From assembly GCF_030408795.1 (NCBI RefSeq), contig NZ_CP047211.1:1798001-1862000 (forward strand): 64,000 nucleotides of DNA, given 5' to 3'. The notes beneath the pieces are model-generated. The model was not told where the DNA came from. It made no database searches and was given only the letters and a program-made list of their open reading frames with translations. This DNA comes from Corynebacterium hansenii. GTDB taxonomy: Bacteria > Actinomycetota > Actinomycetes > Mycobacteriales > Mycobacteriaceae. A program made the position numbers and the translations under genes. The stretch's first letter is position 1; every line of letters begins with the position of its first letter. This document shows positions 6,746-38,163 of the stretch, piece after piece.

Positions 6746-9499
6746 ATGGAGATCACTTTCGGTTGGGGCCTCGACGGCGCCGCATGGGAAGGCGCCGGCC
6801 GCGGGGACGGTTCGGGCGCGTCGCTGGGGCGCGCGGTGGTCGGGCCGGCGGGGTTGGCCGCGATTCTGGGCACGCGGCTGGGGGTGACCGGATTCGTGCT
6901 CGACAGGCCCCTGCGCATCGCCGCCTACCGCGCGGCGCTGGCGCAGGCGCCGCGGCGATGGTGCGGCGGGTCATTCGATCTCGACGCGTGGGCGGTGGCC
7001 AAGAAGATGCTCGCGTGGCGCGATGAGCTCGTCGCCGCCGGCTGGGACGGCTCGCCGGTGCCCGGCGCCACTCCCCGCCTGGCCGATCTCGCGGAGGCCG
7101 AAGGGCTTTTCGACGCTCCGGGAGCGGCCGACGCGTTGAGGGACGCGGCGGCGATGCTGCGCGAGATCGTGGCCGCCGGGGACGGATGGCCGCTGGGCAT
7201 CGACCGGCTGACCGTCCTCGGAGCCAAGGCCGAGCTCCCCGCCCCGTGGCCGGAAATCATCGACGACATGGCGGCGCTCGGCGTCGACGTCGCGGAAGAG
7301 CCCGCCCCCACGGTTCTGGAGCGGCTTCGCGTGGTCACGGCGCCGACGGAATGGGAGGCTGCGGAGGCCGCGGCGCGGATCCTCGCGACTGCCCCGGGTA
7401 CGGCGCTGGTGGCCACGCACCACACGGAGATCCTCGATCAGGAGCTCGCCCGCCGCGGCATGCCCCGCCTGGGCGCCCTCGAAACATCCGATCAACGTGC
7501 GACGGCCCAGGTGCTGCCCCTGTTCCTCGCGGCCATCACGGGCCCCATCGACGTCCACGCGATCGCCGCGTTCCTGGACATGGGCCTGACCAGCAGGGAC
7601 TCCCAGTCCGGGGCGGTGACCCACATCGGGGTCGTGCCCGCCGCGATCCGCCGCCCGCTGCTCTCCGCGCTCGCCGCGCAACCGGGGGTGGGCGGCCCCG
7701 CGTGGATGGCGGCGTTGGAGGAGATCGAAGAGACCATCGCGGCGGACGCGGAGTCCGACGGGGATTCTGACCGTGCGGTGCGAAACCGGGAAATCATCGC
7801 ATCGCTGGACGCCTTCTTCCGCACGTCGCGCGTCGAGTTCGACGGCGGGAACTGCCGTTCGGAAGACATCGTCGGGCCACTGGACTGGCTGGAGAAGCGG
7901 CTGCGGAAGATGGGCGCGCACATGCGGGCGCCCGAGCTCTTGGCGGCGGCACGGTCGGTCTCCGCCGCGATCGAAGTCCTGGGGCAGAGCGAGGCCGTCG
8001 GAGAGCGGGAACTGCAGCGGATCATCGACGACTGCGGCGCCATGCAGGCGTCTCCCCTGGCGGGCGCCGAAGCTTCCGAACACCCGAGGCTGCCGTCGCC
8101 CGCGCTGCTGGGAGGCCGCGGCCCGGTGCTCTGGTGGGGCGCCGTCGACGATGGCCGGGTGCATCGCCGCATCTGGACGCCGGAGGAGGTGCGGGTGCTC
8201 GCCGACGCCGGGATCCGGGTCCCCGACCCCGGGGAGGTCGCGCGGTTGACCGCCGGCGCCGAACTCGCCGGCCTGTGCCGGGCGGGCGACGTCGTCGCCA
8301 TCGTCCCGTCGGTCATCGACGGTGCCGCGACCAGCCGTCACCCCGCGCTCGCCTTCGCCGCGCACCACGTGGACGGTTCCGGTGGCCGCCCCGCGGAATT
8401 CACGGCGCGGGAGCTGGTCACCGACGGGACCTGGCGGTTCGGCGACGCCATCCTGCCGTTGCGCGTGGATGATCCGTTCGTCCCCGATGCCGAGGCGATC
8501 GAGCAGGCGGCGATGGTCCGCACCGTGCCACCGGGCACTCATCTGCTGCCGACCTCGTTGTCCTATACGCAGCTGGAGAAGCTGCTGATCCATCGCCTCG
8601 AATGGTTGCTGGCGTACCCGCTGCGCATCCGCGGCGGATGGTTGACGGAGATCCCGACCGGCAACCGGATGATCGGCTCGTTCCTGCACGCGATCATCGA
8701 GAAGATCGTGGAAGACGGCCTCGACGGCTGCCGAGGCGACGTCGTGCGTTCCTGTTTCGACGAGCTGCTCCCCCATTACGCCTCGGAACTCGATCTCCCC
8801 GGCAACGCGCGGCTGCGGCAGCAGGTGGAGACCGAGGCGCTGGAGAACATCACGGAGCTTTTCGGCACCCTCCGGCGCGGCGGGATGACCGTCGTCGCCG
8901 CCGAGGCGCCCATCGAACGTGCGCTCACGCTGACGCTGCGGGACCCCGGGTCCGACGGCGCGGCCGTCCACGAGCACTCCGTGAAGATGCACGGCTTCCG
9001 CGACCTCGACGCGGAAACCTCCGACGGGCGCACCGTGGTCATCGACATGAAGTACTCGGTCAGCCGCCGCAAGTACCGCGATCTGATCGAGCGCGGCCGG
9101 TCCCTGCAGCTGGCCGCCTACGCGTGGTCGGTCGCGGACGAGATGCCCCTGGCCGGCGTCGTCACCGCCTACTTCGAGCTCAAGTACGGGCGCTTCGATT
9201 CGACCGACCCCCAGCTCGGCGGCCCGGCGGCCGCACCCGCCGCCGTCGATCCGGACACCCTGTGGCGGCGCGCGATCGCCTCCGTCGAGGACGCGCTGTC
9301 GGAGATCATGTTCGCCGGCGAGGTCAGGGACGAAGGCAACGCGATCCTCATCGGGGCGAACGGGATTGACCGTGAAATCCGGAAACGGTCCGAAATGGCC
9401 GCCGACGCCGCCGACATGAACGACCGGCACCTGCCCGCGGACAACGCAAAGTACGTGGACTACGGGATCATCACCGGGATCGAGGCCGATCCGTCATGA
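6746..9499 (+). CDS. AddB-like PD-(D/E)XK nuclease subunit
   Basis: A protein of about 917 residues. The N-terminal two thirds resemble the inactivated helicase-like region of AddB-type subunits (TAPTEWEAAEAAARILA, ALVATHHTEILDQELARRGMP) and show no Walker A motif. The C-terminus is a RecB-type nuclease: GSFLHAIIEKI (about residue 642) supplies the His, VIDMKYS (about 765) the Asp-X-Lys pair, and QLAAYAW (about 788) the QxxxY motif. The four-cysteine iron-sulfur ligand set of classical AddB is not evident. Its stop overlaps the start of the helicase gene by 4 nt (ATGA), so the two are probably translated together and form a complex that unwinds and resects double-strand ends. The start at 6746 fits a TAGCAT -10 box at 6733-6738; an ATG at 6737 with GGGAGG 9 nt upstream is the alternative. 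Confidence 0.78.
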   Translation: MEITFGWGLDGAAWEGAGRGDGSGASLGRAVVGPAGLAAILGTRLGVTGFVLDRPLRIAAYRAALAQAPRRWCGGSFDLDAWAVAKKMLAWRDELVAAGWDGSPVPGATPRLADLAEAEGLFDAPGAADALRDAAAMLREIVAAGDGWPLGIDRLTVLGAKAELPAPWPEIIDDMAALGVDVAEEPAPTVLERLRVVTAPTEWEAAEAAARILATAPGTALVATHHTEILDQELARRGMPRLGALETSDQRATAQVLPLFLAAITGPIDVHAIAAFLDMGLTSRDSQSGAVTHIGVVPAAIRRPLLSALAAQPGVGGPAWMAALEEIEETIAADAESDGDSDRAVRNREIIASLDAFFRTSRVEFDGGNCRSEDIVGPLDWLEKRLRKMGAHMRAPELLAAARSVSAAIEVLGQSEAVGERELQRIIDDCGAMQASPLAGAEASEHPRLPSPALLGGRGPVLWWGAVDDGRVHRRIWTPEEVRVLADAGIRVPDPGEVARLTAGAELAGLCRAGDVVAIVPSVIDGAATSRHPALAFAAHHVDGSGGRPAEFTARELVTDGTWRFGDAILPLRVDDPFVPDAEAIEQAAMVRTVPPGTHLLPTSLSYTQLEKLLIHRLEWLLAYPLRIRGGWLTEIPTGNRMIGSFLHAIIEKIVEDGLDGCRGDVVRSCFDELLPHYASELDLPGNARLRQQVETEALENITELFGTLRRGGMTVVAAEAPIERALTLTLRDPGSDGAAVHEHSVKMHGFRDLDAETSDGRTVVIDMKYSVSRRKYRDLIERGRSLQLAAYAWSVADEMPLAGVVTAYFELKYGRFDSTDPQLGGPAAAPAAVDPDTLWRRAIASVEDALSEIMFAGEVRDEGNAILIGANGIDREIRKRSEMAADAADMNDRHLPADNAKYVDYGIITGIEADPS

Positions 9500-12400
9500 G
9501 CGACCGGAAACAGACGAGCACCATGAAGCAGACGGGCACCATGAAATCGACCATCATCACCGCGAGCGCCGGCACCGGCAAGACCTGGACCATCACCGAC
9601 AAGCTCGCCGACAGGATCGAACGCGGGCTGTCGCCGTCGGCGATCATCGCCACCACCTTCACCACCAAGGCGGCCGGGGAACTCTCCGAGCGCATCCGCT
9701 CCAAGCTGATCGACCGCGGGCAGATCGCCGAAGCGCAGGCCATCGGCTCCGCGCTGGTCGGCACCGTCAATTCGGTGTCTGCGACGCTGGTGCGCGACTT
9801 CGCCATCGACGCCGGGCTCTCACCGGAATTGGAGACCCTCACCGAGGTTGCCGCGAACCGCGTCTTCGAGCTCTCCTGCGACACGGTGATCGCCGACGCC
9901 GAAAGCACCCACCGCGACCTCTTCCGTCGCACCGGCTACGACCGGCCCGTCGATGCCTTCGAACACGACAACCGCAAGTCCTTTTCGGACACCGTCCGCG
10001 ACGTCGCCGACGCCGCCCGCCAGAATCTCATCGCACCCGAAGAACTCGCCGCGCATGCGGAAGCGTCGCTAGACGAACTCATCGGCGTGCTCGACAACAT
10101 CTCCGGAGAAGCCGCGGCCGACGATCGCCCCGACTGGGCTCGCAACGCCATCGCCGCATGCGAAGCCGCCATCGATCACGACGCCGGCGACGAGCGCAAC
10201 GCCGCCGTCGGGCGCCGCCGCAAATTCGCCGACCTCGCGGAGAAGATGCGCGGTGACCTCGGCCGGATCACCTGGAACGAATGGGCCGAGCTCGCGGGCG
10301 CGAAATCCCCCAAGGCCATCGCCGCGGAATTCGCCGATTTCGAGGGCATCGCAGCGGACATCGCCGCCAACCCCGCCTACCGGGCGGACGTGGCCACGCT
10401 GACGCGGCTGGTGCTGGGCACGGCCGCGCGGTGCCTGGTCGCCTACGACGACCACAAGAAGGCCCTCGGGCTCATCGACTTCACCGACCAGGAGGTTCTG
10501 GCGCTGCGGATCATCCGCACCTCGGCGTCGGTGCGCGCGGCCATCGCCGACACCTACGAGGTCCTCGTCGTCGACGAGTTCCAGGACACCAACCCCATCC
10601 AGCTGGCCCTGTTCTTCGCGCTGGGGCAGCTCGCCGGCGAGGTCATCTGGGTCGGGGACCCGAAGCAGTCGATCTACGGGTTCCGCGGGTCGGATCCGAA
10701 GCTCATGGCCGCCGCCTTCGACGAGCTCGCCGCCCACGGCACCGTCGAAAAGCTCGACAGGTCCTGGCGTTCCTTCGAGAATCCCCTGAAACTCACGAAC
10801 GAGCTGTTCTCGGCGTCCATGCCCGACGCCGACGTCCGCCTGCGGGTCGCCGAACCGATGGCGCGGGAGCACGCAGGCGGCGACGTGCGCGTGTGGCGCC
10901 CGTCCACCGACGGAGGCAACTCGAACTCACCGTGGTTCGGGGCGATCGTCAAGGGCGTGTCGTCGCTCATCGCCGAGGGCACGGCCCCGGGCGACATCGC
11001 CGTCCTGGCACGGTCGCGGGCCAACGTCGACGCGATCGTCGACCGGCTGACCGAGGCCGGCATCCCCTGCACCGGCGACAAGACGGACCTGCGCGCCACG
11101 CGGGAGGGGCAGATCATCCGCGCCGCGCTGGGTTTCCTGCTCGACGACCGGGACACGCGGGCGCTGGTCGAACTGATCGTGCTTTGCGACGACCACGCGG
11201 CGCACGGCACCTGGTTCGAGAAGCTCACGACGGCGGACACCACCCGGGATTCGCGCGACGGGCTGCTGCGCGAATGGGCGGAAGACGACGCCCTGGCGCC
11301 GCTGCGGGAACTGCGCGCCGCCGCGGTGAACCTCACCCCGGTGGAATGCGTCCGGCAGGTCATCGATGCGCTGGATCTGCGGCGCCGCATCATCGGCTGG
11401 ACGCGGCCGTCGCGGCGGATGGGAACGCTCGACGCCTTCACGGGCCTGGCCCGCGAATACCAGGACGAAACCAGGTCGGCGGGCGGGGCCACCTCGCTTT
11501 CGGGCTTCCTCGCCTGGTTCGACGCGATCGACGAACCGCCGCAGACCGGCGGCGACGCCGATTCGGTGTACGTGGACACGATGCACTCGGCGAAGGGCCT
11601 GGAATGGGACGCCGTCTGCGTCGCCGTGCCCAAGCCGAAGGACCGCTTCACGCCGGACGGCCACTGGGTGGCGTCGAACGGCGCCCCGACGCTGGAGGAT
11701 CCTCTGGGCGACCGGTACCTGCGGTTCTGGCCCGCCGCGCCGGCCAAGGCGAAGCTCATCGTCGAGGCGATGGCCGCGCACCCCGTGCAGAAGGAGCGCG
11801 CGGCCGCCGGCATCGAGGATGCGCGGCGCCTCGCCTACGTGTCTCTCACCCGCGCGGCCAAGCACTCGATCCTGTGCGCGCGGTCGGGGTACGACGACTT
11901 CGATGCCGTGCGGGGCACGGCCGCGTCCATGCGGCTCGGCGATGGCTCGGTGATCGTCACGGACGCCGACGGCGCCGAAGCCGTCGTCCCCGCCCGCATC
12001 GAGACGATGGTGTGGGACGACTCCGACGCCGCCCCGGCCGTCCCCTCGCGCCACCGCCCCGGCCTCGATTGGCTGCGCGGGCCGGCGCCGACGGACCGTC
12101 TCGTGCCGGCGCGCGTGGCCCCGTCGTCGATCGCGGCGACCGACGAGCAGAAATCACGGGCCGCCGTCACCGAACGCGCCGTGCTGGGCACCCCGCTGGT
12201 CTCCGGGGGCGGGCAACATTGGGACCGCGTCGGCGAAGCCGTCCACGGTTACCTGGGGTTGCCGCTGGCGCACCTCGGCGAGGAACGCCGCGAGCGGGCG
12301 GCGCAGCGGCTCATCGACGCCTGGGGCGTCGGCGCGCACGTCACCGCCGCGACGATGGCGGACGTCGGCGCCCGCTGGCTGGAGTGGCTCGGCCGCGAAT

Positions 12401-30351: not shown

Positions 30352-30681
30352 ATGGAATTGACCCCCAGGGAAATCGACAAGCTGATGGTCTTCACCGTCG
30401 CCGAGGTGGCTCGGCGCCGCCGTGCCCGCGGCGTGGTGTTGAACCGTCCCGAAGCCATCGCCCTGATCACCGACGCCGTCGTCGAAGCCGCCCGAGACGG
30501 CGTGTCCGTCGCACGGGCCGCGGAAATCGGCACTCTGGTGCTCCGCGAAGCCGACGTCATGCCGGGCGTGCGCGCGATGATCCCGCTGATCCAGGTGGAG
30601 GCCACTTTTCCCGATGGCACGAAGCTCGTCTCGGTCCACGACCCCATCGGCGGGCCGTCCGACCCGGAGGCGTCGAGGTGA
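30352..30681 (+). CDS. ureA: Urease subunit gamma
   Basis: A 109-residue urease gamma subunit, first gene of a seven-gene operon. It starts [20 protein letters not shown] and contains the family block [21 protein letters not shown], the [16 protein letters not shown] segment and the C-terminal [20 protein letters not shown]. It is slightly longer than the usual 100 residues. With UreB and UreC it forms the apoenzyme that hydrolyses urea to ammonia and carbamate. Its stop overlaps the GTG start of the following His-rich gene. Confidence 0.97.
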
Positions 30682-31616
30682 GCGGGGCGCGCGAACCCGG
30701 GGCAGAAGAGTTCGGGGCGGAAGAGTCCGTGGCGGGCGAATCCGGGGCGGGCGAGCCCGCGCGCATCGTTCTGTTGGCCGGCCCCGAGGTCACCGACCCC
30801 GGCGCCTGGTCCGCCGCGCTCCCCGACTTGCTCCCGGGCCGGGACGCGATCCTGGTGTCCACGGCCGCCGAGGCGGCGGATGCGGTGGCGCCGGGCCGTT
30901 CCGGGGGAAGCCCGGCGCGCCCCCACGCCGTGGTTCCGCTGACCACCGGGCGCCACCCGGCGACCATCGCCGACGCCGCACGCGCCCTCCGGTGGGCGCG
31001 CGACGCCGGCGGGGCCCGGGTGTGCCTGTCCTCCGCGCTCGGGGACGCCACGCGGACCGTCTCCGCACTGAGGGCGAACATCGGCCGTCACGTTCCCGCG
31101 GGGACATGGGCGCTGGTGGCGTCGACCCCATTGGATGCCTTCGCCGATGCCGAGCTATTCCGCCTCGCCCGACTGGCCGCGACCCACAAGTCCACTCCCG
31201 TGGAGGTGGCGTTCGATGACCGTGACGGCGCCTACCCGACCATCGCCGAAGGCAGGGACCGTTGCCGCGCGCTCGGTGCCGCGGAGGTGCGCGTGCTGCG
31301 CGCCGATCTGACGCTCGAGCCCGCCGCAGGGGAAGTCGCCCTCTGGTCGCCGCCGGTGCTGTCGGCGTTGCTTTCCCTGACGACCGACGCGGCGCTCGAC
31401 GCCCTGCAGTCGGGATGCGATGGCATCGACGCCGCGCTCGACGCCGACCACGGACACGGCTACGCGCACAGCCACGGGCATGAGGAGGGGCACCCCCATG
31501 GACACGGGCACGGCCACTCCCACGATCATGCCCATCCCCACAGCCACTCCCACGCCCACAGTCACGTCCATCCCCACAGCCACTCCCATCACGGAAAAGG
31601 ACATCGCCATGGCTGA
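30678..31616 (+). CDS. Chelatase-like protein with His-rich tail, in the place of UreE
   Basis: A 312-residue protein between ureA and ureB; start GTG at 30678 overlaps the ureA stop. An Ala/Glu/Gly repeat of about 28 residues is followed by an alpha/beta domain, residues 29-250. This domain resembles the CbiX/SirB class II chelatase fold: [37 protein letters not shown], then [18 protein letters not shown] with the [14 protein letters not shown] strand, two repeated halves. The last 55 residues contain about 25 histidines in HxH repeats, ideal for Ni(II) storage. No ureE gene exists in the operon, and UreE proteins often end in such tails. I infer that this protein delivers or stores nickel for urease. 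The chelatase assignment is from motif resemblance only. Confidence 0.6.
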
Positions 31617-32073
31617 CGCCGTCGCCTACCGCACCGCCGCCGCACCGCCCATCGAGCTGTATCCGGGGCGCAGGATCATCGCGTTGCGGGTGACCAACAC
31701 CGGCGACCGGGCGATCCAGGTGGGCAGCCACTACCACTTCTTCGAGGCCAACCCCGCGCTCGACTTCGACCGTGACGCCGCATGGGGCATGCACCTCGCC
31801 CTTCCCGCCGGACTGGCCGTGCGTTTCGAACCGGGCATGTCACGCACGATCGAGCTCGTCGACTTCGGCGGAAAGCGGATCCTCCACGGATTCCACGGGC
31901 TCGTGAACGGCCCCCTGGACGACCCCGCCATCCGCGCCCGCGCACGCGCCGCCGCAATCGCCGGGGGCTTCCGGGGCTTCGCCGCAACCACCGCAAACGC
32001 CTCAGGCACCTCAGCCACCTCAGCCACCGCCGGCACGACAAACACCTCAGACACCACGGAGGAGCCCCGATGA
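31609..32073 (+). CDS. ureB: Urease subunit beta
   Basis: A 154-residue beta subunit. The core [38 protein letters not shown] and [20 protein letters not shown] is canonical. The C-terminus after about residue 118 is a low-complexity Ala/Thr/Ser tail that is not part of the usual fold, which is close to 100 residues. Start at 31609 (MADAVAYRT), overlapping the end of the His-rich gene by 8 nt; the frame is open upstream but there encodes an antisense-like Thr/Pro shadow of the histidine codons. The stop overlaps the ureC start by 4 nt. Confidence 0.95.
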
Positions 32074-33803
32074 CCCGTGACGCGCATCCGACCCTCGGCC
32101 GCGCGGAGTACGCGGCGATCTTCGGCCCGACGACAGGCGACCGCGTTCCCCTCGCGGACACGTGCCTGGAAATCGAGATCGAACGCGACGCCGCCTCCGG
32201 TTCATACGGCGACGAATCCGTCTACGGCGGCGGCAAGGCCATCCGCGACGGCATGGCGCAGGATCCGACGATCACGCACGCCGACGGCGCCCTGGACCTG
32301 GTGATAACCGGGGTGATCGTCGTCGACGCGATGGTCGGCGTCGTCAAGTGCGACGTCGGCATCCGCGACGGGCGCATCGTCGGCCTGGGCAAGGCGGGCA
32401 ACCCCAACGCGCAAGACGGCGTCGACCCGGATCTGGTCATCGGCGCGGCGACGGAGGTCATCTCCGGCGAGCACCGAATCCTGACGGCCGGCGGCGTCGA
32501 CACGCACATCCACTACATCACCCCGCAGCAGTGCGAGGAGGGGCTGTCCAACGGCATCACCACCTTCTTCGGCGGCGGCACGGGCATGGCCGAGGGCACG
32601 CGCGGCACGACGTGCACCCCGGGGCCGGGGAACCTCGCCGCGATGCTCCGCGCCGCCGAGGGCCTGCCGGTGTCGACGGGGTTCCTGGGCAAGGGATCCG
32701 GCTCCGTCCACGCGCCCCTGGCCGAGCAGATCCGCGCGGGTGCGGCGGGCCTGAAAATCCACGAGGACTGGGGTTCCGCACCCGCCACGATCCGCACGGC
32801 GCTCGACGTCGCCGACGAGTTCGACGTCCAGTTGGCCATCCACACCGACACCCTCAACGAAAGCGGCTTCTTCGAGGACACCGCGGCGGCCATCGGCGAC
32901 CGGACCATCCACACGTTCCACTCCGAGGGCGCCGGCGGCGGGCACGCCCCCGACATCCTCCGCGTGGCGGGCATGCCGTCGGTGCTCCCGGCGTCGACGA
33001 ACCCGACGCTGCCCTACACGGTCAACTCCGTCGAGGAGCTGCTCGACATGGTGATGGTGTGCCACCACCTGTCGCATTCCATCCCCGAGGACGTCGCCTT
33101 CGCCGATTCCCGCGTCCGCGCGGAAACCATCGCCGCGGAGACGGTGCTCCACGACCTGGGCGTGCTGTCGATCTTCTCCTCCGATTCGCAGGCGATGGGC
33201 CGCGTCGGCGAGAACTGGGTCCGCGCACTGCAGACGGCGCACCACTGCAGGGAAAAGCTGGGCAAACTCGGCGACGGCCCGGCCGACAACGAACGGGTGC
33301 TGCGCTACGTGGCGAAGCTGACGATCAATCCGGCACTGGCCGCCGGCATCGCCGACCACGTCGGATCCGTCGAGCGGGGCAAGATCGCCGACCTGGTGCT
33401 GTGGCCCATCGATTCCTTCGGGGCGAAGCCGCACCTGGTGCTGCGCATGGGCCAGGTCTGTTGGGCGGCGGTCGGCGACCCGAATGCGTCGCTGCCGACG
33501 CCGCAGCCCGTGCACTACCGGCCGCAGTTCGCCTCGTTCGGGTCGGCGCTCGCCGCGACGCGGGTGACGTGGATGTCGCGGGCGGCGATCGATGCCGGCG
33601 TGCCGGAGCGCCTCGGCCTCCGCTCCACGGTGTTGCCGGTGCGCGGGTGCCGGTCGATCGGCAAGCGCGACATGGTCCGCAACGACGTCCTCCCCGACAT
33701 CAAGGTGGACCCCGAAACGTACGTCGTCACCGTCGACGGCGTGCCCGCCACCATCGAACCCGCCGAGTCGCTGCCGCTGGCGCAACGGCATTACCTGTTC
33801 TGA
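32070..33803 (+). CDS. ureC: Urease subunit alpha (catalytic)
   Basis: A 577-residue amidohydrolase carrying the bi-nickel site. Visible ligands are the HxH of [10 protein letters not shown] (about residue 146), the carbamylated Lys in GLKIHEDWG (about 226), His in [13 protein letters not shown] and [15 protein letters not shown], and the flap [16 protein letters not shown] containing the catalytic histidine. Length and motifs match standard UreC. The ATG at 32070 overlaps the ureB stop, and the TGA overlaps the ureF ATG by one base (TGATG). Confidence 0.98.
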
Positions 33804-34546
33804 TGGCGGCACCTGTTCCGACGGCGGCACCGGGTCCAAAGTCAGCCGAACCCCCAGGCGACATCCGCGCACTCCTCACCACGCTGCAGTGGACCGATTC
33901 CGCCTTCCCCTCCGGCTTGTACACGCTGTCGCACGGCTTGGAGGGGCTGGCTCAGCGGGGCATCGCGACGCGGGAGTCGCTTGACGACGTCGTCGCCGGA
34001 CTCCTCCGCCACTCCATCGGGCCCTCGGACGCGACCGCGACCTGCCTGGCGTGGCGGGCGGCCGAGGCGGGCGATCCGGACATGCTCATCCGCATCGACG
34101 ACGAGCTCTCCGCCACCCGCCCGTCGGCCGGGATGCGCCGCGGTTCGCACCGCGCGGGCCGCCAGACGTTGACGATGGCCGCCGAACTCGGCGCCGCCGA
34201 CGGCATCGTCGCGACCTTCCGCGACGCCGTCGTCGACGGCAGGGCTCCGGGGAACCAGGCCGTCGCGATCGCCGTCGTCAAGCGGCGCTTGGGGGTGGGG
34301 ATCGAACACGTCGCCGCAGCGGAACTCGCGGGCTTCGTCAACGGCATCGCGGGGGCCGCGATCCGGCTGCGGCTGGCTGACCATGTCTCGGCGCAGAAGC
34401 TGGTGGCGTCGATGGCGCCGGTCATCGTCGACGCACTGGCCGATGCCCTGTCCCGCCCACTCGACGAACTCGGGCCGTCGACCCCGGCCCTCGACATAGC
34501 CTCCGCCGCGCACGAGACGGCGCCGGCGCGGCTGTTCCTCAACTGA
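33803..34546 (+). CDS. ureF: Urease accessory protein UreF
   Basis: A 247-residue UreF, part of the UreD-UreF-UreG activation complex that loads nickel and CO2 on UreC. Family motifs are LQWTDSAFPSGLYTLSHGLEGLA (about residues 28-50), GPSDATATCLAWRAAEAGD and the GRQTLTMAAELG region. The first 20 residues are an Ala/Pro-rich extension. Start ATG at 33803 shares a base with the ureC stop. Confidence 0.94.
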   Translation: MAAPVPTAAPGPKSAEPPGDIRALLTTLQWTDSAFPSGLYTLSHGLEGLAQRGIATRESLDDVVAGLLRHSIGPSDATATCLAWRAAEAGDPDMLIRIDDELSATRPSAGMRRGSHRAGRQTLTMAAELGAADGIVATFRDAVVDGRAPGNQAVAIAVVKRRLGVGIEHVAAAELAGFVNGIAGAAIRLRLADHVSAQKLVASMAPVIVDALADALSRPLDELGPSTPALDIASAAHETAPARLFLN

Positions 34547-34562
34547 ACCCCGCCCCCACCTG

Positions 34563-34578
34563 CCCCCCCCAAAAAAAA
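34563..34578 (+). repeat. C8-A8 homopolymer tract between ureF and ureG
   Basis: Eight C (34563-34570) followed directly by eight A (34571-34578), then an unusually A-rich leader up to the ureG ATG at 34616. Homopolymers this long are rare in this GC-rich sequence and prone to slippage. Confidence 0.8.
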
Positions 34579-34615
34579 CCACGAGAAGAAAAACGGAAGA
34601 AAAGAGAACGCGACC

Positions 34616-35260
34616 ATGAACCACGACGACCGCACCCACCGCCCGACCACACCCGCGCGCCCCTACCGCATCGGCATCGGCGGTCCGGTGGGATCGGGCA
34701 AGACGGCGCTGATCGAAGCGCTGGTGCCCGCGATGGCCGCCGCGGGGCGGGAGATCGGCGTGATCACCAACGACATCTACACGCAGGAGGACGCCGACCA
34801 CGTCCGCCGCACCCTGGCCGGGACACTGGATCCCGCCCGCGTCGTTGGCGTCGAAACGGGTTCGTGCCCGCACACCGCCGTGCGCGACGACCCGACCATG
34901 AACATGATGGCGGCCGCCGAACTGCGGGCCGACCATCCGGAACTGGACACCATCTTCTTCGAATCCGGCGGCGACAATCTCACGTTGACGTTCTCGCCCG
35001 CCCTCGTCGACGTGTTCGTCTTCGTCCTCGACACCGCCGAAGGCGAGAAGATGCCCCGCAAGCGCGGGCCGGGCATCACGGAATCGGACCTGCTCGTGAT
35101 CAACAAGGCCGACATCGCGCAGTACGTCCGCTGCGATCTCGGGGTCATGATGTCCGACGCCGACCGCGTCCGCTCCGGCGCACCCGTCATCGCCACGAAC
35201 TGCCTCGGGGGCGAGGGCATCGCCGAGGTGGTGGCGTTCCTGGAATCGAGGCGCCCGTGA
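34616..35260 (+). CDS. ureG: Urease accessory GTPase UreG
   Basis: A 214-residue SIMIBI-class GTPase that delivers nickel during urease maturation. P-loop GIGGPVGSGKTALIEAL (about residues 21-37), IGVITNDIYTQEDA, the metal-binding Cys-Pro-His of VETGSCPHTAVRDD (about 84), FFESGGDNLT and the NKAD guanine motif. The GTP-dependent UreG dimer normally receives Ni from UreE; here UreE is missing. The leader is A-rich, with GAGAAC close to the start. Its stop overlaps the ureD GTG start by 4 nt. Confidence 0.97.
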   Translation: MNHDDRTHRPTTPARPYRIGIGGPVGSGKTALIEALVPAMAAAGREIGVITNDIYTQEDADHVRRTLAGTLDPARVVGVETGSCPHTAVRDDPTMNMMAAAELRADHPELDTIFFESGGDNLTLTFSPALVDVFVFVLDTAEGEKMPRKRGPGITESDLLVINKADIAQYVRCDLGVMMSDADRVRSGAPVIATNCLGGEGIAEVVAFLESRRP

Positions 35261-36213
35261 GCGCCGGCGCGAACCGGAACAAGCGCACCCCGGCGCTGCC
35301 CGCCGGCGCTCCGGGAAAGGATGGCTTGCTCGTCCTCGAATTCGCCCCGAAGGACGGCGCCCCGGGGACGGGCCACGGAACCGCAATCGGGACCGACGGC
35401 GACGGCGAAGATGCCATCACCACCGCTATCTCGCGCCCCACCGAGTGGACGCGCCGCCGCCACCGGACGCCGCTTCGCGTGACCCGGCCGCTGCACCCCG
35501 ACCCCTCCCTGCCCGGCCTGCCCGTGGTCTATTCGATGTGCACCGGCGGCGGTCTGGTCCAGGGCGACCGCACCCGCACGGACATCACCGTCCGGGCGGG
35601 CAGCCACGCGCTGGTCACCTCGCAGGCGGCAACGAAGATCCACTCCATGACCCAAGGCTTCGCCGCCAACGACGTGTCCCTCGTCGTCGAGTCGGGCGCC
35701 ACGCTGGAGCATCTCCCCGACCCGACGATCTGCTTCCCCCGTTCGACGCTGCACCAGACGCTCACCGCCGACGTCGCCCCCGGCGGCACGTTGATCACCG
35801 CCGACATCACGGTTCTGGGCAGGCTTTCCGACGGTGACCCGCTCACCCACGACCACGCCCGCTTGGACACCCGGATCACCGTGGACGGGAGACCGGCGCT
35901 GATCGACCGCACGGTGCTCGGAGGGCCCGGCGCGTTCCACCCCGTCATGACGGGCGGCGCGCCGGTGCTGGGAACGTTCATCGCGATCGCGCCCGATGCC
36001 GCCACCACCCGGGAACTCGCCGAGGCCATGCGCGCGGCCGGCGGTGCGGGCTCCGACCGGCCCGGCGTCACCATCCTCCACCGGGACGCGGGCGTGGTGG
36101 CGAGAATGCTCGGCCATGACGCGGAGGCCATCCAACTCGCTTTTCATCGGCTGTGGGACGCCGCACGCCGTCACCTGCTCGGCGTCGGCGCCTTCGACCT
36201 GCGCAAAAGGTGA
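35257..36213 (+). CDS. ureD: Urease accessory protein UreD
   Basis: A 318-residue UreD (UreH) scaffold protein for urease activation. Recognised by VVYSMCTGGGLVQGDRTRTDI, ALVTSQAATKIHSM, LEHLPDPTICFPRSTL and the C-terminal MLGHDAEAIQLAFHRLWDAARRHLLG. The first 50 residues are poorly conserved and include a Gly/Asp-rich loop. GTG start at 35257 overlaps the ureG stop. Last gene of the operon; no clear terminator follows. Confidence 0.93.
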   Translation: MSAGANRNKRTPALPAGAPGKDGLLVLEFAPKDGAPGTGHGTAIGTDGDGEDAITTAISRPTEWTRRRHRTPLRVTRPLHPDPSLPGLPVVYSMCTGGGLVQGDRTRTDITVRAGSHALVTSQAATKIHSMTQGFAANDVSLVVESGATLEHLPDPTICFPRSTLHQTLTADVAPGGTLITADITVLGRLSDGDPLTHDHARLDTRITVDGRPALIDRTVLGGPGAFHPVMTGGAPVLGTFIAIAPDAATTRELAEAMRAAGGAGSDRPGVTILHRDAGVVARMLGHDAEAIQLAFHRLWDAARRHLLGVGAFDLRKR

Positions 36214-36354
36214 CGCGCCGGGAGTCCACGGCATCCCATGTTTCCGACGGCTTCCCCACCGAAACCCCGGCGTAACCCGCCCCGCGGAAACGTCACTGCG
36301 GCGCAACGAGAAACATCATTAACCCGAAACACCTCCCCCATACCGTCCGGAGGC

Positions 36355-38163
36355 ATGAGCACATCACACACTCCACCCGCCATCGCCGGGCAAGAATCCA
36401 TCCACCAAACGGGCCGAATCGCGGTTGCATCGGCATCGTCGCAAAGCAAGAAGGCCCACCGGGAGGGCGAAGACCACACCCTCCGTTTCGCGCCGCGCTC
36501 GTACCGGCGCTGGACCCCCGGCGTGGTTGCCGGGTCGGCGCTCGGCGGCATCGCGTACCTGGCCGACTTCTCCATCGGCGCGGGCATCGGCATCCAGCAC
36601 GGCACGGCGAACGCCATCGGCGGCATCCTCATCGCGGCCGTGCTGATCTTCCTGTCGTCCTTCCCACTGGCGTACTACGCGGCGCGGTACAACCTGGACC
36701 TCGACCTGATCACCCGCGGTTCGGGATTCGGGTATTACGGCTCGGTGCTGACGAACGTCATCTTCGCCACCTTCACATTCATCTTCTTCGCGCTCGAGGG
36801 CGCGATCATGGCGCAGGGGCTCCGCGTCGGGCTGGGGATGCCGTTGTGGGCCGGGTACCTGACGGCGACGCTCATGGTCATCCCCCTGGTCATCTACGGG
36901 ATGAAGGCGCTGGCCAAACTTCAGTCGTGGACCTCCCCGCTGTGGCTGATCATGATGGTCATCCCCCTTCTGTACCTGGTGTGGCGGGAACCCGACTCCG
37001 TGGACGCCTTCCTGTCGTGGTCCGGCACGGATGGCTCGGGCGCGAACGTGGCGTCGATGATGCTGGCTTCCGGCGTGTGCCTGGCGCTGACCGCGCAGAT
37101 CGCCGAAAACATCGATTACCTGCGATTCATGCCGCCGAAGACGCCCGAGAACGCCAAGTCGTGGTGGGCGTCGGTCATCGCCGGCGGCCCGGGGTGGGTC
37201 ATCCTCGGCGCCGCGAAGCAGATCATCGGCGTGTTCCTGGCCATCTACCTGATGTCGATGCTCGGCGGCGCCCCCGGCGACGCGCAGGAGCCGGTCAACC
37301 AATTCCTGGTCGTCTACGGCGAAATGATGCCCGCGTGGCTGGCGATGACCCTCGCCGTCGTGCTGGTGGTCATCTCGCAGATCAAAATCAACGTCACCAA
37401 CGCGTACTCGGGCTCGCTGGCCTGGACCAACGCCTACACCCGCCTGACCAAGCGTTACCCGGGCCGCGTCACCTTCGTCGCGTTCAACCTGGCCATCGCG
37501 CTGGCGTTGATGGAGTTCGACATGTTCTCCGTGGTCAATTCGGTGCTGGCGTTCTATTCGAACCTCGCCATCGCGTGGATTTTCACGGTGGCGGCGGACA
37601 TCACGTTCAACAAGCATCTGCTGGGGTTGTCGCCCCGGCGGCCCGAGTTCCGGCGCGGCATGCTCCACGCGGTCAATCCCGTCGGCGTCACATCGGTCGT
37701 CGTCTCCGGCGGCGGGTCCATCGCCGTGTTCTTCGGCCTCTTCGGCGCCGGCGTCCAGCCGTACTCGCCCCTGATCGCCGCGGGGCTGGCCGTGGCGAGC
37801 ACGGTCGCCATGGCGTTGCTGACCGGTGGCCGCTGGTACCTGCGCCGCGTCGACGACGGAATCGAAGCCCCCTACCTCGACGAACACGGCAACCCTTCCG
37901 ACCTCGAGCTGACCTGCTGCGTCACCGGCATCGCGTTCGAGCGCCCGGACATGGTCCGCTCGGCGATCGACGCTCCGGATGGTTCGCCCCGGTACATTTC
38001 GTCCCTGGCCCTGTCCATGGATGCCGCCGGCGACCATGTGCTGCCGGCCGATGATTACGCCCGCCTCACGGCCGCCCGCACCCGCGAGCTGCTGGCGCGC
38101 CGGGCCCGATTGTCCGGCGACGCCGCGGACGCCTCCGACGAGGTCCGCGTCTCCGCCCGATAG
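36355..38163 (+). CDS. NCS1 family nucleobase/allantoin-type permease
   Basis: A 602-residue permease with about twelve helices of the purine-cytosine permease (NCS1) family. Motifs: RWTPGVVAGSALGGIAYLADF, FPLAYYAARYNLDLDLITRGSGFGYYGSV, WASVIAGGPGWVILGAAKQIIG and INVTNAYSGSLAWTN. NCS1 carriers import nucleobases, hydantoins, allantoin or thiamine with sodium or protons. Location after the urease genes suggests uptake of a nitrogen source whose breakdown yields urea, but the substrate is not readable. A soluble C-terminal tail of about 110 residues is unusual. The N-terminus contains ASSQSKKAH, encoded over a CGTCGCAAAGC copy (36437-36447). Start chosen at 36355; GGAGG is only 1 nt upstream, so a start further 5' (36238) remains possible. 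Confidence 0.85.
   Translation: MSTSHTPPAIAGQESIHQTGRIAVASASSQSKKAHREGEDHTLRFAPRSYRRWTPGVVAGSALGGIAYLADFSIGAGIGIQHGTANAIGGILIAAVLIFLSSFPLAYYAARYNLDLDLITRGSGFGYYGSVLTNVIFATFTFIFFALEGAIMAQGLRVGLGMPLWAGYLTATLMVIPLVIYGMKALAKLQSWTSPLWLIMMVIPLLYLVWREPDSVDAFLSWSGTDGSGANVASMMLASGVCLALTAQIAENIDYLRFMPPKTPENAKSWWASVIAGGPGWVILGAAKQIIGVFLAIYLMSMLGGAPGDAQEPVNQFLVVYGEMMPAWLAMTLAVVLVVISQIKINVTNAYSGSLAWTNAYTRLTKRYPGRVTFVAFNLAIALALMEFDMFSVVNSVLAFYSNLAIAWIFTVAADITFNKHLLGLSPRRPEFRRGMLHAVNPVGVTSVVVSGGGSIAVFFGLFGAGVQPYSPLIAAGLAVASTVAMALLTGGRWYLRRVDDGIEAPYLDEHGNPSDLELTCCVTGIAFERPDMVRSAIDAPDGSPRYISSLALSMDAAGDHVLPADDYARLTAARTRELLARRARLSGDAADASDEVRVSAR

Follow-up and report, generated by a model that had tools for sequence, protein, structure and literature searches.

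The urease operon described here spans positions 30352-36213 on the + strand of the window, by which we mean the whole stretch of 64,000 nucleotides that was analysed, and the window sequence and Pfam matches give the gene order ureA-X-ureB-ureC-ureF-ureG-ureD. The operon carries a complete ureABC set together with ureF, ureG, and ureD, and lacks ureE according to Pfam and a search of the genome. The features of the locus are as follows:

30352..30681, + strand: ureA, urease gamma subunit, 109 aa (Pfam Urease_gamma, E 8.9e-42)
30678..31616, + strand: X, chelatase-like protein with a His-rich tail, 312 aa (open reading frame, homologs, fold, and synteny)
30759..31442, + strand: X residues 28-255, two-lobed class II chelatase-like domain
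31449..31475, + strand: X residues 258-266, conserved HGHGYAHSH motif heading the tail (50-row alignment A3)
31449..31613, + strand: X residues 258-312, His-rich tail, low-confidence and probably disordered (25 His in 55 residues)
31609..32073, + strand: ureB, urease beta subunit, 154 aa (Pfam Urease_beta, E 1.5e-38)
32070..33803, + strand: ureC, urease alpha subunit, 577 aa (Pfam Urease_alpha, E 1.7e-45; Amidohydro_1, E 1.9e-64)
33803..34546, + strand: ureF, 247 aa (Pfam UreF, E 9.2e-31)
34616..35260, + strand: ureG, GTPase, 214 aa (Pfam cobW/HypB/UreG, E 1.2e-31)
35257..36213, + strand: ureD, 318 aa (Pfam UreD, E 8.4e-51)
36238..38163, + strand: membrane permease-like ORF 3' of ureD (assigned by eye, with an uncertain start)

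Just as the first-pass annotation had placed it, X (30678-31616) lies within the structural genes, between ureA and ureB; its GTG start codon overlaps the ureA stop, and its end falls inside ureB. The overlapping starts and stops described in that annotation are present at all junctions (ureA/X 4 bp, X/ureB 8 bp, ureB/ureC 4 bp, ureC/ureF 1 bp, and ureG/ureD 4 bp) but one, ureF and ureG being 69 bp apart. The homologs, synteny, and fold of X ruled out a chance reading frame. The permease-like ORF at 36238-38163, which has no Pfam match at E 0.01, is possibly part of the urease unit. Relatives of this ORF (64-73%, tblastn) were seen near the X-type ureases of loci L009, L033, and L046, where they lie upstream and on the opposite strand.

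Regarding the nature of X, the predicted structure and fold comparison gave a two-lobed core that folds like SirB, CbiX, and CbiK, and a profile-profile comparison of the X family with eight SirB/CbiX-like proteins returned E 2.2e-7. The resemblance to CbiX/SirB-type chelatases, first proposed from the letters alone, is thus borne out at the fold level, as a two-lobed class II chelatase fold, and at the profile level. X itself has no Pfam CbiX match; 51 of the 89 members of alignment A2 match this family at E <= 0.01, the best at 1e-6. Apart from a chance Zip match in the tail, Pfam assigned X to no family, NCBIfam gave weak matches alone, far under cut-off, and a PDB sequence search with profile A2 returned an unrelated protein as its best match (E 0.16). 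The catalytic positions, taken from a single profile alignment, correspond to aligned positions 36 and 95: the first is His in 35 of the 50 A3 rows, Pro in the window's X, and not His in the displayed rows of Corynebacterium and Dietzia, while the second is His in 0 of the 50. Residues conserved in X instead are E37, R92, R132, R162, and R195; Cys occurs in at least 30% of the 50 rows at just two columns (84 and 196), with no conserved Cys cluster. The genome holding the window has a separate SirB-like gene in which both catalytic His are kept and whose neighbour we take to be cysN-like; the gene context of X consists of urease genes (ureA-X-ureB), not siroheme or cobalamin genes. The best reading of X is a catalytically lapsed class II chelatase fold serving as a urease nickel chaperone or store, which suggests that some actinobacterial proteins labelled sirohydrochlorin chelatase or CbiX would be urease proteins.

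UreE (PF02814/PF05194) is the urease nickel chaperone. Its absence, as claimed for this operon, extends to the rest of the genome: UreE_N and UreE_C had no match in the 3.1 Mb single contig, with the C. glutamicum control positive in both searches, and Pfam found no UreE domain in X. When considering other nickel genes, no NicO nickel transporter was found in the window's genome, and two HypA matches were located about 6 kb apart (G000:C1:2672795-2673121 and 2678680-2679000). This pair suggests a [NiFe] hydrogenase locus, and the HypA matches could represent a nickel supply for urease.

Among 242 Corynebacterium genomes, the X profile matched 33, UreE_N was above cut-off in 59, and urease alpha was above cut-off in 91. 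Of these 91 urease genomes, X was present in 32 and UreE in 59; no genome had both and none lacked both. At E <= 0.001, UreE_N was found in 62 genomes and urease alpha in 92, from which the below-cut-off genomes G039, G128, G152, and G190 were removed; none of the three with sub-cut-off UreE_N (G039, G128, and G152) has a urease alpha match. The distance between the X match and the ureC match was 384-835 bp in all 32 X genomes with urease, and the 33rd X genome, G112, is without a urease alpha match. The Fisher test of the X/UreE split gave p 2.7e-25, a value that contrasts two operon lineages and is not a count of independent events; the split reflects the existence of two types of operon by descent, not a series of separate replacements.

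Some of these Corynebacterium loci deviated in their reading frames. Broken X frames were seen at L141 (G230) and L146 (G119), both counted among the 32, and since the ureC match of G230 is partial as well, the urease operon there may be decaying. One TAG lies within the X matches of G007, G083, G163, and G177, whose loci still have at least 7 His at the frame end. Additionally, the urease alpha match falls in an open frame of 740-741 aa in G087, G125, G136, and G202, as expected for the ureB-ureC fusion described in C. kroppenstedtii (PMC10683109).

Beyond the genus, a scan of named genomes, queried with alignment A2, gave 103 confirmed stretches; the 80 best of these, three of them from Corynebacterium, were taken further, and the nearest named record was Corynebacterium halotolerans 307_CHAL. 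The same scan queried with X alone found no relative. X had no match in 72,556 plasmid records. Among the best 80 of the 103 stretches, X is accompanied by ureA, if not by more urease genes, in 73; one (L093) is accessory-only, and six are without urease genes. In L093, the sole such case among the 80 named loci, X-ureF-ureG-ureD occupies positions 7956-11415 without ureABC matches. An AmtB-like gene follows that cluster and a urea-transporter-like membrane protein precedes it, these and ureF having been named by eye. The search for the same gene between ureA and ureB in other genomes, proposed with the first-pass annotation, gave a uniform answer: in all 103 loci having matches to all three genes, most of them found by X search, the order ureA, X, ureB was kept on one strand, and 99 loci remain when four counted twice are removed (L016/L116, L033/L136, L046/L138, and L081/L194). 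A possible X start codon lies at most 4 nt from the ureA stop in 89 of these 103 loci, the start nearest the ureA stop having been taken, a choice that favours small gaps.

A ureC tree of 183 rows, obtained by a quick search after rows of less than 450 aa and repeated sequences had been removed, put all 98 X rows to the same side of a branch whose SH-aLRT was 100. When 30 loci were added from a ureC search blind to X, which covered 209 genomes and matched 128 of them, all 99 X rows stayed together and none of the 114 other rows fell among them; the only locus of that search in the X clade was the window's own. The UreE labels of these 30 loci were read from short flanks, L256 and L258 duplicate L202 and L204 under wrong labels, and X loci outside Corynebacterium come mostly from X searches, so that the clade could have members without X that such searches overlook. 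Likewise, X and ureC distances were correlated over 68 loci (Mantel r 0.879; 0 of 999 permutations as high). By the grouping of 99 of 99 rows and this correlation, X is, within the loci sampled, a constant component of a single urease lineage; the clade includes Streptomyces and Arthrobacter, and X occurs in many actinobacterial genera. In genome G355, an X operon coexists with another urease that lacks both X and UreE (L196 and L197). X marks a distinct actinobacterial urease operon lineage without UreE.

The His-rich tail of the window's X, first described as about 25 histidines within 55 residues, has exactly 25 among its last 55, encoded by both CAC and CAT. His 258, 260, 264, and 266 of the motif are present in 42, 42, 49, and 47 of the 50 A3 rows, respectively; the tail is variable in length among X proteins and of low confidence in the predicted structure. 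Within the best 80 of the 103 stretches, all 73 urease-linked X proteins have 7-24 His in their last 70 residues, and all six relatives without linked urease have 3-5, so the His tail of X tracks urease linkage. The unlinked relatives are L037, L045, L064, L065, L076 (Catenulispora), and L091 (Spongiactinospora). Dietzia tails are short, with 7-8 His in three loci. A further relative, L147 (5152-6003), belongs to the urease-alpha-negative Corynebacterium genome G112 and has no His-rich tail.

A class-wide draw of 344 genomes showed how far this picture can be extended. Urease alpha was above cut-off in 162 genomes (155 with E below 1e-20); 163 genomes had a match of some kind, 8 of these at E above 1e-5, which may be other amidohydrolases. 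UreE_N was found in at least six genomes and X above 200 bits in at least four (G000, G355, G537, and G549), both counts being lower bounds, since 7 candidates per genome were scored for X and 17 for UreE, and all four of these X matches adjoin a ureC match. Profile A3 matched in at least 74 of the 344 genomes, 70 of them at 61 bits or less only; these low-scoring matches were taken for ordinary CbiX/SirB or chance, and none was near ureC by eye among the matches listed. Neither X nor UreE was seen in 152 of the 162 urease genomes (145 of 155 at E below 1e-20), and 60 class-draw loci read directly by tblastn comprised three with X, five with UreE, and 52 with neither. With neither protein in 152 of 162, the absence of UreE need not by itself call for a replacement, and actinobacterial ureases seem, from their gene content, to mature without X or UreE in many genomes. 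The earlier idea of X standing in for UreE agrees with Corynebacterium, with its 32/59 split and no overlap, but as a strict replacement it is weakened by the class draw, by the descent of that split from two lineages, and by the HypA matches in the window's genome.

The N-termini of UreG were compared across the three operon types. At least two His were present in 6 of 99 X-type, 1 of 33 UreE-type, and 22 of 38 UreG proteins from operons with neither (L176-L233), uncorrected for kinship; the count left out four X-type loci in which no P-loop was recognised, together with the loci without a UreG match (16 of L116-L235, and some named), UreG starts were picked by a simple ribosome-site score, and a few records were counted twice. 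The UreG of the window has only 2 His ahead of its P-loop, and within G355 the X-type UreG N-terminus has 0 His and the other UreG 4. Fewer than two N-terminal His were found in 16 of the 38 UreGs with neither, so a one-donor pattern is not strict. Another group of these UreGs, in which the text ahead of the P-loop ends in GVA or GVC, has mostly 0 His. The pattern fits, imperfectly, one His-rich nickel donor per system.

We propose that X arose from a CbiX/SirB-type class II chelatase with two domains and has since lost the catalytic His pair. The tail and the HGHGxAHSH motif would bind Ni(II), and X would pass it to UreG or to the UreF-UreG-UreD complex, and would thereby fill the role of UreE in other operons, a role that a His-rich UreG N-terminus may play in many operons with neither. 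Through translational coupling to its neighbours ureA and ureB, X would be made alongside the apo-enzyme. A nickel role is indicated on four grounds, namely the tail, which is the strongest clue, the UreG N-termini, the company of maturation genes in L093, and the urease-positive strains without ureE discussed below. We consider it fairly probable that X serves a single urease lineage as its dedicated accessory protein, a former chelatase that loads nickel via UreG or the UreF-UreG-UreD complex, nickel binding and delivery being the parts that we infer. Because many actinobacterial ureases seem to have neither protein, the phrase "replaces UreE" is too strong: X is better described as an accessory protein specific to its lineage that probably acts as a nickel chaperone or store. 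A more specific version, to which we would give a little less than an even chance, is a third nickel-delivery system beside UreE and His-rich UreG, in which the pseudo-chelatase cleft is the docking or transfer site and the His reservoir feeds UreG.

Other roles for X were weighed against this accessory role. X might instead be produced along with urease to store or buffer nickel, in the manner of Hpn or the CbiX-L tail, limiting free nickel without passing it on to UreG, while urease is loaded by UreG, UreF, and UreD alone or with HypA. The long, low-confidence, length-variable tail, the two HypA matches, and the frequency of urease-positive genomes with neither UreE nor X are compatible with such a store; however, a store would hardly need a large folded domain that has stayed conserved and co-diverges with ureC, and X accompanies maturation genes without ureABC in L093, so we regard this role, taken alone, as unlikely. 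An aid to UreA-UreB-UreC assembly, or a holder of the subunits for the maturation complex, with the His tail secondary, would agree with the location between ureA and ureB and with the close start codons in 89 of 103 loci, for which the nearest start was chosen. It is rendered improbable by L093, where X stands beside ureF-ureG-ureD and no ureABC, by the commonness of X-less ureases, and by the relatives without urease genes, among which no long tail was seen.

Least probable of all, to the point of being very doubtful, is a still-working sirohydrochlorin chelatase (Co or Ni) that came to lie in a urease operon by chance. The class II fold, the CbiX matches of 51 of the 89 A2 members, the database labels of several relatives (sirohydrochlorin chelatase or CbiX), and the His that 35 of 50 rows keep at the first catalytic site would be expected of such an enzyme, but the second catalytic His is missing from every row, the first is Pro in the window's X, the genome has its SirB-like gene with both His, and the conserved neighbours are urease genes. 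The accessory role would provide a concrete candidate factor for UreE-less urease in one large actinobacterial lineage, where X ties tetrapyrrole chelatases to protein metallation. If the nickel-delivery reading is true, we know of no earlier class II chelatase fold in protein-to-protein metal transfer.

When compared to UreE, X is also a urease accessory gene product with C-terminal His, and in Corynebacterium each of the two is found only where the other is missing. In contrast, X belongs to another family, with a chelatase fold and no UreE domain, and it is situated between ureA and ureB, whereas UreE lies 3' of ureC in all 28 Corynebacterium UreE operons read (28 of the 59 were retrieved). 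We take the X of a published corynebacterial cluster to be the present X. That cluster, ureAXBC-ureFGD without ureE, was printed in 2023 for three skin corynebacteria, C. kroppenstedtii, C. pseudokroppenstedtii, and C. bovis, and three UreE-less ureAXBC strains were urease-positive by API Coryne, which indicates that this operon type works without UreE (PMC10683109). The layout is the same as in the window; "chelatase", "histidine", and "nickel" are absent from the main text, and its account of the cluster offers no fold, distribution, or role for X (PMC10683109). The gene layout behind the route that the first-pass annotation said would be undescribed was already in print, with X left without a role. 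Searches of the open-licence PMC literature turned up no description of a urease maturation protein resembling a chelatase.

Regarding the class II chelatases SirB, CbiX-L, CbiK, and CfbA, X shares their two-lobed fold and differs in the missing second catalytic His (50 of 50 rows) and in its urease context. CbiX-L of B. megaterium joins a chelatase domain to a His-rich C-terminal region, for which a part in storing and delivering metal has been proposed; it retains the catalytic His and bears a 4Fe-4S centre (PMC7689651). X likewise consists of a chelatase domain and a C-terminal His-rich region, and differs from CbiX-L as described there in having no conserved Cys cluster and in being associated with urease (PMC7689651). 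The parts, a His-tailed chelatase and the ureAXBC-ureFGD layout, are known; their combination is new.
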